Below, in pieces: positions 50,283 through 62,058 of a stretch of 64,000 nt of DNA. The DNA comes from Ideonella alba. GTDB lineage: Bacteria; Pseudomonadota; Gammaproteobacteria; Burkholderiales; Burkholderiaceae_C. The stretch is from contig NZ_JAGQDF010000005.1 of assembly GCF_018069875.1 (NCBI RefSeq), positions 1 to 64,000 on the forward strand, given 5' to 3'. The notes below the pieces were generated by a model, which was given only the letters and a program-made list of their open reading frames with translations, was not told where the DNA came from and made no database searches. Positions within the stretch are counted from its first letter, which is position 1. The number at the start of each line of letters is the position of its first letter. The position numbers were made by a program, and so were the translations under genes.

Positions 50283-51416
50283 CTACTCGGCAGCGTGGCG
50301 GGCCTCGTGCGCTTCCTTGCGGGTGCGGAAATGCCACCAGGGCAGGGCCCGGGTCAGCGACAGCACCTCGCCCGGCGTGTTCAGCGCATAGCCGGGCAGC
50401 GCCGAGACGGCCTGGTGCATCGGTGCGCCGGCCAGGGCCTCGCACAGCTGCTGCACCGCCGGGTGCTGCAGCGCATCCTTCAGGCAGACCAGGAAGTAGT
50501 CTTCCTCGACCAGCGGCACCAGGTCCAGGCCGAACTGCTCGGCCGCCGCGGCAATGCCCACGCCGGCATCGCCCAGGCCGCTGGCGATGGCCGCGGCCAC
50601 GGCCAGGTGGCTGTCCTCCACCACCTCGTGGTAGCGCGGCACGAAGCTGCTGGACAGGCCTTGCTGGGCCAGCAGGTGATCGGTCAGCAGCCGGGTGCCC
50701 GAGCCTTCCTGGCGGTTGATGAAGCGCACCGAGCCGCTGGCCAGGTCCGCCAGGCCGCGCAGGCGCAGCGGGTTGCCGCGCGCCACCATCAGGCCCTGGG
50801 TGCGCCGGGTGCAGCCGATCAACTTGTGCACGCCGGGCTTGAGCAGCGGCTTGAGCGCCTCGGCGAACAGGTTGCGCGCGTCCTCCAGCGGCGGGACGTG
50901 GAAGCCCGCCACGGTGCAGCGGCCCTCGGACAGCGCGCGCAGCGCGTCCATGCTGCCGGCAAAGCGCAGGTCGATGTGCAGGCGGTGGTGCTCGGCGGCG
51001 CACTCGCGCAGTGCCGGCAGCGCCAGGTCATGGCTGGCGTAGATGGTGAGCACCTGGTGGCTGCCGTCCAGCGCCTCGGCCAGCACGCGCTCCAGCTCGG
51101 AGCGCAGCGCCTCGATGTGCGGCGTCATGCGGGTGCGAGCGCGCGCCTCGGCCCACAGCAGCCGCTCGGCAAAGGGCGTCAGCCGCGCCGGCTGGCCCTT
51201 GGCCCACAGCACCAGCGGCTCGCCGATCACCAGCTCCCACTGCTTGAGCGCGCCCCAGACGTGGCGGTAGGAGGCGCCGGTGGCGGTGGCCGCGTGCTGG
51301 ATCGAGCCGTGCTGGCGCAGCGCCGAGAGCAGGTCGAACAGCGGGTTCTGGATGTCCGCGCCGCGCTGGCCGTCCGACTGGAAGCTGTACTGGAGATGGA
51401 CGCCGCGGGATTTCAT
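50283..51416 (-). CDS. ModE-like regulator with fused substrate-binding domain
   Basis: This 377-residue protein has an N-terminal LysR/ModE-type winged helix (about 25-110: NPLFDLLSALRQHGSIQHAATATGASYRHVWGALKQWE) fused to a periplasmic-binding-protein-like domain (about 120-340: VLTIYASHDLALPALRE, GRCTVAGFHVPP, FINRQEGSGTRLLTDHLL, VAAAIASGLGDAGVGIAAAAEQFGLDLVPL). The second domain resembles ModA/TupA-like oxyanion binders, so it may sense molybdate or tungstate, or an organic ligand. It is divergent from the MoxR gene. Candidate targets are the palindromes before the W/Mo enzyme and quinoprotein operons. It starts at ATG 51416 after a GGAACCTCCTC-type leader on its strand. Confidence 0.83.
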   Translation of the reverse strand: MKSRGVHLQYSFQSDGQRGADIQNPLFDLLSALRQHGSIQHAATATGASYRHVWGALKQWELVIGEPLVLWAKGQPARLTPFAERLLWAEARARTRMTPHIEALRSELERVLAEALDGSHQVLTIYASHDLALPALRECAAEHHRLHIDLRFAGSMDALRALSEGRCTVAGFHVPPLEDARNLFAEALKPLLKPGVHKLIGCTRRTQGLMVARGNPLRLRGLADLASGSVRFINRQEGSGTRLLTDHLLAQQGLSSSFVPRYHEVVEDSHLAVAAAIASGLGDAGVGIAAAAEQFGLDLVPLVEEDYFLVCLKDALQHPAVQQLCEALAGAPMHQAVSALPGYALNTPGEVLSLTRALPWWHFRTRKEAHEARHAAE

Positions 51417-51497
51417 GAGGAGGTTCCAAGGTGAACGATAACCGATGCCCCGGCGCGGCGCCTTGCCGCCCCCTTCACGCCCACCGACAATCCTGCC

Positions 51498-52889
51498 ATG
51501 TCCCTGCCCACCCCTGAACGCCTGCAGGCCTGGCTGTCGGCCCTGGAGAGCGGCCTGCTGGAGCGCAGCCTGGCCGTGCGCGCCGCGCTGCTGGCGGCCC
51601 TGGCTGGCGAGCATGTGCTGCTGCTGGGGCCGCCCGGCACCGCCAAGAGCGAGCTGGCGCGCCGCCTGCACCGGGCCTTTGGCGGCGCCCGCTACTTCGA
51701 GCGCCTGCTGACGCGCTTCTCCACGCCCGAAGAGCTGTTCGGCCCGCTGTCGCTGAAGGCGCTGGAGGATGACCGCTACGAGCGCCTGGTCGATGGCTTC
51801 CTGCCCACCGCGGGCGTGGCCTTCCTGGACGAGGTGTTCAAGGCCAACTCGGCCATCCTCAACGCGCTGCTGACCCTGCTCAACGAGCGCGAGTTCGACA
51901 ACGGCAGCGGCCGCCAGCGCACGCCGCTGCTCAGCGTCGTCGCGGCCAGCAACGAAGGCCCGGCCGACGAGGCGCTGCGCGCCTTCCATGACCGCTTCCT
52001 GCTGCGCGTGCCGGTGACGCCGGTGGGGGACGATCACTTTGCTGCATTGCTGCGCCTGGACGGCGCCGAGCCGCTCTGGCCGGTGCCGATCAGCCCCGAC
52101 GAGCGGGCCGCGGTGAGCGCCGCCGCCACCCAGGTGTCGCTGGGCGACGAGGCGGTGCAGGCGCTGGCCGCGCTGCGCGCCTGGCTGGCGGCGCAGGGCC
52201 GCTCGCTGAGCGACCGCCGCTGGCGCCAGTGGGTGGGCCTGCTGCGGGTGGCCGCGGCCACCGAGGGCCGCAGCCAGATCGACGGCCTGGACCTGTGGAC
52301 CGCGCCGCTGGTGGCTGCCGACGAGCCGGCGCAGGCCGCCGCACTGGCGCAGTGGTTCCAGGCCGAGTGGCTGCAGGCGGTGCCGCAGGAGGCGCCCTGG
52401 CTGACCCGGGCGGTCGAGGCTTTCGAGCGTCAGCTGGACCTGGAGATGAGCGCGCGCCAGGACGCCGAGGCCGATGACGCCGCGGGCAAGCTGGCGCTGG
52501 CGCGCCAGATCGGGATGGGGCAGGGCGATGACGGGGACGGCATGCTGCGCATGGTGTCGCAGCAGCTCGAGGCCCAGCTGCGCCGGCGCTACAGCCCGGT
52601 GCACGTGGCGGCACGCGTGGCCCAGGCCGACGAATTGCTGGCCCAGTTGCAGGCTCAGCGCGCTGCGGCCGCCGCCACCTCTGACGCGCTGGCCGAGCGC
52701 CTGCGCGGCCGCCTGTGGTGGCCACCGGCGCTGGCGCAGCAGGTGGTGGACGCCCACCGCCACACCGAGGCCGTGCTGGCCGCGCTGGTGGCCCGGCTGA
52801 CGCCGGTGCGCGATGGTTTCGCTGCGCTGCCGCTGGATAACACCCTGAACGAGCCGGCGCCGCCGCCGGTGCAATTGGAGCCGGCGTGA
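51498..52889 (+). CDS. MoxR/RavA-type AAA+ ATPase
   Basis: This 463-residue ATPase has Walker A GPPGTAKS (44-51), Walker B FLDEVFK, and sensor region VVAASNEGPADEALRAFHDRFLLR of MoxR proteins, with a long C-terminal part like RavA. MoxR ATPases act with von Willebrand factor A proteins as chaperones that insert metals or cofactors. The VWA partner follows with a GTGA overlap. MoxR itself is named from methanol oxidation operons, so proximity to the xoxF operon 1.6 kb downstream is suggestive. Confidence 0.9.
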   Translation: MSLPTPERLQAWLSALESGLLERSLAVRAALLAALAGEHVLLLGPPGTAKSELARRLHRAFGGARYFERLLTRFSTPEELFGPLSLKALEDDRYERLVDGFLPTAGVAFLDEVFKANSAILNALLTLLNEREFDNGSGRQRTPLLSVVAASNEGPADEALRAFHDRFLLRVPVTPVGDDHFAALLRLDGAEPLWPVPISPDERAAVSAAATQVSLGDEAVQALAALRAWLAAQGRSLSDRRWRQWVGLLRVAAATEGRSQIDGLDLWTAPLVAADEPAQAAALAQWFQAEWLQAVPQEAPWLTRAVEAFERQLDLEMSARQDAEADDAAGKLALARQIGMGQGDDGDGMLRMVSQQLEAQLRRRYSPVHVAARVAQADELLAQLQAQRAAAAATSDALAERLRGRLWWPPALAQQVVDAHRHTEAVLAALVARLTPVRDGFAALPLDNTLNEPAPPPVQLEPA

Positions 52890-61476: not shown

Positions 61477-61953
61477 TCAGGCCGCGGCCTGTTGGTTGCC
61501 CAGCTTGTTCGCCCAGGCCTGCATCTTGTCGATGCCGGTCCAGTTGGCGTCGACATAGGTGATCGCGCCGGTGGGGCAGGCGTCGGCACAGGCCGGCTCG
61601 CCGCCGCACAGGTCGCACTTCTGCACCTTGCCGGTTTCCTGGACGTAGTTGACGGTGCCGAAGGGGCAGCTGATCGTGCAGACCTTGCAGCCCACGCAGG
61701 TGCTCTCGGCCACCACCTTGGCGCCGGTGGCCTTGTCCACCGTGATCGCCTCGACCGGGCAGGCGTGCAGGCACCAGGCCTCATCGCACTGGGTGCAGGT
61801 GTAGGGCACCTTGCGACCGGTCTCGTGGAAGTCGAACACGCGGATGCGCGAGCGGGCGGTGGCGAACACGCCGTAGTTCTCGTAAGAGCAGGCCATTTCG
61901 CACTGCCGGCAACCCGTGCACTTGTCCGGGTTGATGTGAAGGCTCTTCTGCAT
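61477..61953 (-). CDS. aorA: Polyferredoxin subunit of aldehyde oxidoreductase (AorA-like)
   Basis: This 158-residue DMSO-reductase-type ferredoxin has four clusters of cysteines, beginning with CTGCRQCEMAC (12-22) and continuing with CTQCDEAWCLHACP, CVGCKVCTISCP and CDLCGGEPACADACP, enough for four [4Fe-4S] clusters. It wires the AOR subunit to the FAD subunit and is first in the operon. The start at ATG 61953 places the first cluster at the expected distance; upstream residues in the same frame are unrelated. Confidence 0.92.
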   Translation of the reverse strand: MQKSLHINPDKCTGCRQCEMACSYENYGVFATARSRIRVFDFHETGRKVPYTCTQCDEAWCLHACPVEAITVDKATGAKVVAESTCVGCKVCTISCPFGTVNYVQETGKVQKCDLCGGEPACADACPTGAITYVDANWTGIDKMQAWANKLGNQQAAA

Positions 61954-61997
61954 GGAGGGTCTCCGCGTCGGTCCTTGTGAAGTTCGTGAGCCGGGCA

Positions 61998-62058
61998 TAG
62001 GCGTTCAGCGCCTGACCTCGGGCTATGCAATGATCTGCATAGCCTCTGCCAACGCCTA
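61998..62058. promoter_or_regulatory. Nested inverted repeats upstream of the aor operon
   Basis: A perfect dyad with arms GGCTATGCA (62021-62029) and TGCATAGCC (62036-62044) around ATGATC is framed by a second pair, TAGGCGTT (61998-62005) and AACGCCTA (62051-62058). The block lies between the divergent aor and imuA genes, about 45 bases before the aorA start. It is most likely an operator for the aor operon, perhaps bound by the ModE-like protein at 50283. Confidence 0.55.

Follow-up and report, generated by a model that had tools for sequence, protein, structure and literature searches.

Gene Content of the Locus

A 64,000-nucleotide stretch of the Ideonella alba genome (positions 1 to 64,000 of contig NZ_JAGQDF010000005.1, assembly GCF_018069875.1; herein the window) carries an operon predicted to encode a tungsten-type aldehyde oxidoreductase (AOR), a gene for a putative tungstate regulator (herein REG) and a cassette for a lanthanide-type alcohol dehydrogenase, XoxF. 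The xoxF-xoxJ-cytochrome c block lies on the plus strand, its genes joined by ATGA overlaps, and ends at 57519. It meets a convergent minus-strand aor operon, which closes with a stop codon at 57542. This operon comprises an AorE candidate of 101 residues, a MoaD/ThiS-like protein, an FAD subunit, the AOR large subunit and a 4Fe-4S protein; beyond it, on the opposite strand, lies imuA. Much of this had been read correctly in the initial annotation: the two operons converge at 57519-57542 with the gene content claimed, the alcohol dehydrogenase is a pyrroloquinoline quinone (PQQ) enzyme with the extra Asp (WDYD) of the lanthanide type, and the tungsten or molybdenum AOR, apparently of the AORAa tungsten kind, has a MoaD/ThiS-like gene in its own operon. 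The regulator had been placed between the two operons, which was an error; REG lies to the left of moxR, vwa and xoxF. The principal features are as follows.

50283..51416, minus strand: REG, predicted tungstate regulator with a ModE/LysR-like helix-turn-helix (HTH) and a PF12727 PBP_like domain (PF12727 188 bits; TIGR00637 35.7 bits, sub-cut-off; tupA linkage; start codon, at about 51416, read from the sequence)
54433..54449, no strand: perfect 7+3+7 palindrome 5' of xoxF, not a REG operator (matrix score, pattern search)
54486..56285, plus strand: XoxF-type PQQ dehydrogenase (likely start 54486, reading frame open from 54435; TIGR03075 588 bits; 4mae closest solved relative; WDYD)
56282..57115, plus strand: XoxJ-type periplasmic binding protein (TIGR03871 268 bits, above cut-off; its ATG overlaps the xoxF stop)
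57112..57519, plus strand: c-type cytochrome of the xoxF cassette (PF13442 35 bits, above cut-off)
54379..57541, no strand: segment with xoxF, xoxJ and the cytochrome gene, missing in the sister genome G200 (blastn of the window against L165)
57542..57847, minus strand: AorE candidate, small, C-terminal Gly-Gly (no Pfam or NCBIfam match; Gly-Gly tail in 41/41 homologue places)
57855..58148, minus strand: AorD, MoaD/ThiS-like, C-terminal Gly-Gly (PF02597, PF14451; Gly-Gly tail in 49/49 places)
58166..59536, minus strand: AorC, FAD/NAD subunit (PF07992 178 bits)
59604..61439, minus strand: AorB, predicted tungsten-type AOR large subunit (PF01314, PF02730; 8c0z 1063 bits, full length)
61477..61998, minus strand: AorA, 4Fe-4S subunit (Fer4 families; homologues start at an inner Met, about 61953)
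62021..62044, no strand: predicted REG operator of aorA, TATGCA-N6-TGCATA, a 9+6+9 inverted repeat (score 26.4, runner-up in the window 7.4; the genome has one further strict match)

The aor Operon

AorB matches 8c0z, the Aromatoleum AORAa, over its whole length (1063 bits; next-best chain 719), and its PF01314 and PF02730 matches place it as the large subunit of the bacterial three-subunit AOR branch. The subunit genes aorA and aorC are present together with aorD and aorE; the last is assigned by position and Gly-Gly tail only, the 101-residue protein being taken as AorE because that tail is kept in all 41 homologue places. Judged by these matches, the operon falls in the AORAa class of tungsten enzymes. 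AOR occurs in 57 of the 200 genomes that make up our sample of the family.

Two further observations concern the operon itself. The AorE candidate (57542-57847), which has no Pfam or NCBIfam match despite the kept Gly-Gly, may represent an undescribed MoaD/ubiquitin-like family. A hairpin at 59562-59582 with a T-rich tail, on the minus strand in the aorB/aorC gap, could be an attenuator, but the region holds five such hairpins against 3.7 in shuffles.

A Predicted Tungstate Regulator

The N-terminal HTH of REG is ModE/LysR-like (TIGR00637, E = 7e-9, 35.7 bits against a cut-off of 98.5; PF00126, E = 5e-6, just above cut-off), and the sensor part is PF12727 PBP_like (188 bits, E = 1e-55). The fusion of a ModE-like DNA-binding domain to a ligand-binding domain described in the initial annotation is borne out, with the TIGR00637 score below its cut-off. 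REG gave no HTH_17 match at E 0.001, no TOBE match, and no match (0) among PDB sequences.

REG is present in 98 of the 200 family genomes (E <= 1e-30) and TupA in 115; the two co-occur with a Fisher p of 2e-21. Linkage was counted over all 58 AOR rows and, for 82 genomes with E <= 1e-98, over the top REG row of each; the count excludes 16 of the 98 REG genomes, lower-scoring REG paralogue rows and, for a few genomes, second TupA rows. On this basis, REG and tupA lie no more than 5 kb apart in 61 of the 78 genomes that have both a close REG (E <= 1e-98) and TupA (same contig in 69), on opposite strands in 56 of those 61; REG is divergent from tupB in many of the loci fetched. Among the 57 AOR genomes, 54 have TupA and 47 have REG; in 14 of these 47, no more than 15 kb separate REG from AOR. 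In G058 and G205, REG stands immediately after aorE on the same strand. By linkage, REG thus appears to belong to tungsten/tungstate supply.

The host genome also holds a second REG paralogue at L148 (G000:C5:99804-100811), 38% identical, with no tup or aor matches in the 16 kb fetched.

A Predicted Operator Common to aorA and tupB

Exact dyads were searched for in the 300-bp regions upstream of aorA (n = 27) and tupB (n = 20) and compared with shuffles. The dyad TATGC-N8-GCATA was found in 5/27 aorA regions and in 5/20 tupB regions, where it was the top word; no word exceeded 3 and 2, respectively, in the shuffles. One word, TCTCA-N3-TGAGA, was commoner upstream of aorA (6/27), and another regulator may act there. 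A 24-column matrix refined from the aorA and tupB dyads, with a site threshold of 18, gives a site at 24/27 aorA and 20/20 tupB promoters (best score in 93 shuffled upstream regions, 6.0), counts that are partly circular because the matrix was trained on those promoters. Genus genomes fetched after training have a site at aorA in 7/7 loci, two of them (L165 and L166) near-copies of the window, and at tupB in the 4/4 loci where tupB was found; a fifth locus, L171, yielded neither tupB nor a site.

Across 81 loci (1.39 Mb) chosen around aor, tup or REG genes, with overlapping stretches and repeated genomes included, the matrix gives 74 sites, of which 68 adjoin aorA, tupB, tupA, moeA, REG or xdhC; 20 column-shuffled palindromic control matrices give between 0 and 8 sites each. 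The five sites at xdhC are outside the training set, two of them sharing one promoter (L165). The operator reads TATGMA-N6-TKCATA; a strict pattern for it occurs at two places in the 5.5-Mb host genome, 62024 (aorA) and C32:145745 (the tupB/moeA gap), and the reversed control at one. A scan of 50200-62300 for sigma-70-like promoters returned a single site, at 56011 inside xoxF, and none at aorA or xoxF. We regard the domain composition of REG as new for a regulator and its predicted operator as well supported; a search of the open-access literature found no report of this operator or of the lanthanide/tungsten association described below.

The xoxF Cassette

XoxF matches TIGR03075 (588 bits), and its closest solved relative, 4mae, is a methanol dehydrogenase. 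The extra metal-site Asp, two residues past the catalytic Asp, is in place (WDYDAVNE aligned with WDYDGVNE of 4mae), and the companions xoxJ (TIGR03871) and cytochrome (PF13442) follow downstream. The initial annotation raised the palindromes at 54433 and 62021 as possible sites of one regulator that could tie both operons to metal supply. Both palindromes exist; a common site does not follow, since the one at 62021 fits the operator matrix with a score of 26.4 and the xoxF-side palindrome, ATGTGCA-N3-TGCACAT, scores 1.1. The latter is perfect, but its pattern was chosen post hoc, and a match with at most two mismatches turns up in 21 of 100 shuffled windows. By sequence, the two are different sites.

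The sister genome G200 is 94.2% identical to the window over 45197-54378 and 96.5% over 57542-62929, and lacks 54379-57541 (blastn of the window against L165); vwa and aorE nearly abut there (junctions inspected by eye). In G210 (93.2% over 6.0 kb), xoxJ and the cytochrome gene occupy the same position, 92% and 84% identical, after which the contig ends. A window-type XoxF is present in at least 1 of the 16 genomes examined from the genus; the true number may be higher, since the assembly of G210 (80% complete) stops at xoxJ. Some XoxF is found in 7 of the 16, the others being 45-47% identical. The closest relative found, from Oryzibacter, is 59% identical and has no AorB match in its 10-kb flanks. 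XoxF lies within 15 kb of AOR in 1 of the 57 AOR genomes of the family sample, the window genome (31 of 40 XoxF rows counted; the excluded nine have E values of 1e-147 or worse, and one of them, G168, has AOR on another contig). The xoxF-xoxJ-cytochrome segment is a lineage-restricted, 3.1-kb presence/absence cassette.

The pairing with aor looks recent because the sister species is without the cassette, and we consider a gain between vwa and aorE more likely than many losses. Had the cassette instead been ancestral at the locus and been lost in G200 and elsewhere, the pairing would be old; its presence in the window, partial presence in G210 and lack in G200, all close relatives, could be read in this way. 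Yet in no other genome of the family sample does a XoxF lie 15 kb or less from either AOR or REG, and the closest outside window-type XoxF is the Oryzibacter protein without AorB nearby. We think this history unlikely.

A stronger claim would make xoxF and aor one metal-responsive alcohol-to-acid module, both under REG. The genes are adjacent and convergent, their reactions are chemically consecutive, xoxF has a perfect palindrome of its own, and xoxJ and the cytochrome gene are kept at the same place in G210. Set against this are the operator score of 1.1, the location of the two strict genome copies, neither of which is at xoxF, the missing cassette in G200, and the single case of XoxF near AOR among 57 genomes. 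With the palindromes mismatched, the cassette missing in the sister genome and the proximity confined to 1/57, coregulation of xoxF and aor is unsupported, and we consider a joint module highly improbable; the operator scores and the synteny led us to reject shared control of the two by REG. Of the proposed tie to metal supply, the aor half finds support (tupA within 5 kb of REG in 61/78 genomes, an operator common to aorA and tupB) and the xoxF half does not. The xoxF/aor pairing also fails the check on synteny in related genomes that the initial annotation had proposed; a PedH-type dehydrogenase, another enzyme with a lanthanide site, passes it in part.

PedH-Type Dehydrogenases near Tungsten Genes

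The host dehydrogenase at C32:147314-149047 has as its best PDB match 6zcw (767 bits), which we take to be PedH; the extra Asp of this type is kept in 24/24 places read. The gene follows moeA, is divergent from tupBCA, and lies 86 kb from aor. The same order of PedH-type gene, moeA and tupBCA recurs in G058, G076 and G208, with AorB 4.7, 8.7 and about 8 kb from the PedH-type gene, respectively; G052 and G168 have tupBCA, REG, tonB-soxYZ-mbl and the PedH-type gene, in that sequence.

Among the TIGR03075 matches listed for the family sample, the best 43 (733 bits or more) define the PedH-type group, present in 43 genomes; 23 of these have AOR (odds ratio 4.2, p 1e-4). Within the same matches, a PedH-type gene is no more than 20 kb from TupA in 7 of the 29 genomes with both, in four genera (rough expectation 0.27), and no more than 20 kb from AOR in 4 of the 23 with both (expectation 0.21); both expectations were computed for a 4.3-Mb genome with independence assumed, though related genomes share history. 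A sample of 399 genomes from the order contains AOR in 35 (E <= 1e-150), a PedH-type enzyme in 26 (E <= 1e-200) and both in 10 (expected 2.3, p 1.5e-5). Six genomes with both are from outside the family (p 0.005); in one from another family, G215, 13 kb separate the two genes, and a REG-like gene (32% identical) is present there along with an operator-like site scoring 18.6. The PedH-type/AOR association is recurrent, with PedH-type genes adjoining tup, moeA or aor in several genera, and is the part worth following.

The 215-bp gap between moeA and the PedH-type gene in the host (L138:12100-12320; G000:C32 near 147.2 kb) contains a CCGGGA/TCCCGG dyad and what, read by eye, is presumably a sigma-54-like element (TGGCAC..TTGC). 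Overall, 5 of 15 PedH-type promoters have a CGGGA-N5-TCCCG dyad. We rejected control of the PedH-type gene by REG, with 0/15 promoters carrying the operator.

Quinoprotein Relay Genes and Other Neighbors of REG

The left flank of the window and the interval between REG and xoxF hold the following genes.

46379..48487, plus strand: PqqU-like TonB-dependent receptor (NF041535 TonB_rec_PqqU 533 bits, below the cut-off of 1200)
48490..49284, plus strand: quinoprotein-associated SoxYZ-like carrier (TIGR04557 206 bits, above cut-off)
49281..50276, plus strand: quinoprotein relay zinc metallohydrolase 1 (TIGR04558 403 bits, above cut-off)
51498..52889, plus strand: MoxR-type AAA ATPase, RavA-like (PF20030 197 bits; between aorE and REG also in G200 and G204)
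52886..54397, plus strand: VWA-domain protein, ViaA-like (PF13519; NF008230 128 bits, below cut-off)

In G200 and G204 as in the window, the moxR-vwa pair (51498-54397) separates REG from aorE; it is possibly a maturation pair for the AOR metal cofactor. The SoxYZ and relay hydrolase genes (48490-50276) have REG as their neighbor in the window and also in G200 and G058; in L121, L122, L140, L141, L145, L147, L154 and L174 they are beside the PedH-type dehydrogenase.

These neighbors bear on what REG may sense. PBP-like sensor domains are versatile, and quinoprotein relay genes adjoin REG in the window, G200, G058, G052 and G168, so that an organic signal (an alcohol, an aldehyde or something PQQ-linked) could be the ligand in place of tungstate. 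The main linkage of REG is nevertheless to the tungstate importer, with the operator at tupB in 20/20 loci, and the matrix scan found no operator at 15 PedH-type or 6 tonB promoters. An organic ligand is, in our judgment, improbable.

Proposed Model and Its Weight

The reading we favor, and think probable, is that of a tungsten locus in which REG runs aor and tup, with the xoxF cassette a separate, recent arrival outside the regulon and a PedH-type enzyme the usual lanthanide companion. By comparison with AORAa, AorABC would oxidize cytoplasmic aldehydes to acids with NAD+, and the two small proteins with Gly-Gly tails probably serve assembly of the tungsten cofactor. The PBP-like domain of REG would sense tungstate (or molybdate), and the protein would bind TATGMA-N6-TKCATA at aorA and tupB. 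In the Desulfovibrio TaoR/TupR system of Rajeev et al. 2019, tungstate reportedly shuts off the importer and turns on AOR; by analogy with TaoR, tungstate-bound REG may repress the tupBCA importer and activate aor. In the periplasm, XoxF would oxidize alcohols with a lanthanide and PQQ, and AOR may clear the aldehydes formed by periplasmic PQQ enzymes, XoxF included; any cooperation between XoxF and AOR would then be metabolic, a hand-off of aldehyde, and not common regulation. In related genomes, a PedH-type enzyme with a lanthanide site tends to accompany the tungsten locus, often with the SoxYZ and relay hydrolase genes; in the window, the relay set is retained next to REG, and the PedH-type gene of the host sits 86 kb from aor, next to tupACB-moeA.

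Several observations weigh against this model, beyond the partial circularity of the training counts and the choice of loci already mentioned. REG and tupA are more than 5 kb apart or on separate contigs (9) in 17 of 78 genomes, and in the host they are about 92 kb apart. The matrix scan shows no operator at REG itself in the window, and 3 of the 27 aorA loci are without one. Beyond the family, where 18 of the 31 AOR genomes found were fetched, a site (threshold 15) is near aorA in 7/18 loci (L179, L184, L186, L187, L189, L190 and L197); the operator is therefore partly lineage-bound. A single-sequence AlphaFold model of REG had a predicted local distance difference test (pLDDT) score of 38.7 and was left unused. 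As for the PedH-type companion, most genomes with both enzymes show no linkage; all TIGR03075 dehydrogenases pooled are not enriched in AOR genomes (at least 25/57 among the matches listed versus 85/200 overall); co-occurrence of the PedH-type enzyme and TupA alone is not significant in the family sample (p 0.16); and, with no operator at the 15 PedH-type promoters, linkage is not the same as shared control. Lastly, in G200 (L165:1-4330) the DNA that separates xdhC from a divergent molybdenum-hydroxylase operon (by eye, with genes for small, large and FAD subunits) has two operator-like sites, scoring 21.7 and 26.4. Molybdate may therefore be sensed too, and molybdenum enzymes may join the regulon in relatives; the window DNA upstream of 45197 does not align to G200 and is without the two xdhC-side sites.

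What the favored model predicts is a concrete tungstate regulon: one regulator, one operator, and as targets aor, tup and moeA, sometimes with xdhC. It has relevance beyond the window because AOR is common among these bacteria (57/200 family genomes). The xoxF neighbor, a presence/absence cassette and not a conserved partner, corrects the earlier claim. The model also predicts that the outer lanthanide enzyme and the inner tungsten enzyme act on one route from alcohol to acid, in which case growth on alcohols could depend on how much of both trace metals is supplied. A bolder version, which we hold tentatively and think rather doubtful, sees in the order a recurrent two-metal module from alcohol to acid, in which a PedH-type enzyme encoded next to tup, moeA and aor usually takes the first step, the tungstate regulator with its new type of HTH gates the second, xoxF in the window is a second, independent recruitment of a lanthanide dehydrogenase to the tungsten locus, and tungsten supply sets whether the aldehyde that lanthanide enzymes form can be cleared.

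Comparison with Known Systems

The window XoxF resembles XoxF methanol dehydrogenase in family, in its match to 4mae, in the extra Asp and in its xoxJ and cytochrome partners, and differs in sequence, no relative found being more than 59% identical. The host enzyme linked to tup and moeA is closest, among solved structures, to 6zcw (767 bits), taken to be PedH, the lanthanide ethanol dehydrogenase of Pseudomonas putida; its gene adjoins moeA-tupBCA, and we know of no report of such an arrangement for the PedH gene in P. putida.

The AORAa operon of Aromatoleum aromaticum consists of aorABC with aorD and aorE, described as MoaD-like (PMC6365974, PMC10413684). The window operon is alike in its three enzyme subunits and two further small genes, and in the full-length match of AorB to 8c0z; it differs in its flanks, which carry a PF12727 regulator, moxR-vwa and the xoxF cassette. 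The word "regulator" is absent from the main text of PMC6365974.

Like ModE, REG has a ModE-like N-terminal HTH (TIGR00637, E = 7e-9) and a palindromic predicted operator; unlike ModE, it scores below the family cut-off, has no TOBE match, and carries a PF12727 sensor. PF12727 also occurs as a C-terminal domain of MoeA, according to a source that describes a regulator of tupABC in Desulfovibrio (PMC10102598). TaoR, which regulates a tungsten AOR, combines an HTH with a PBP-like sensor, and TaoR-like proteins are described as carrying a helix-turn-helix-17 domain (PMC11980592). REG shares with TaoR/TupR the pairing of HTH and PBP-like sensor and the linkage to tungsten AOR and tungstate uptake genes, and has a ModE/LysR-type HTH in place of HTH_17. 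By its predicted domains, then, REG is not TaoR, nor is it ModE. The enzymes compared here are already known; the regulator variant, with its predicted operator, is new, and the association of lanthanide and tungsten enzymes is recurrent.

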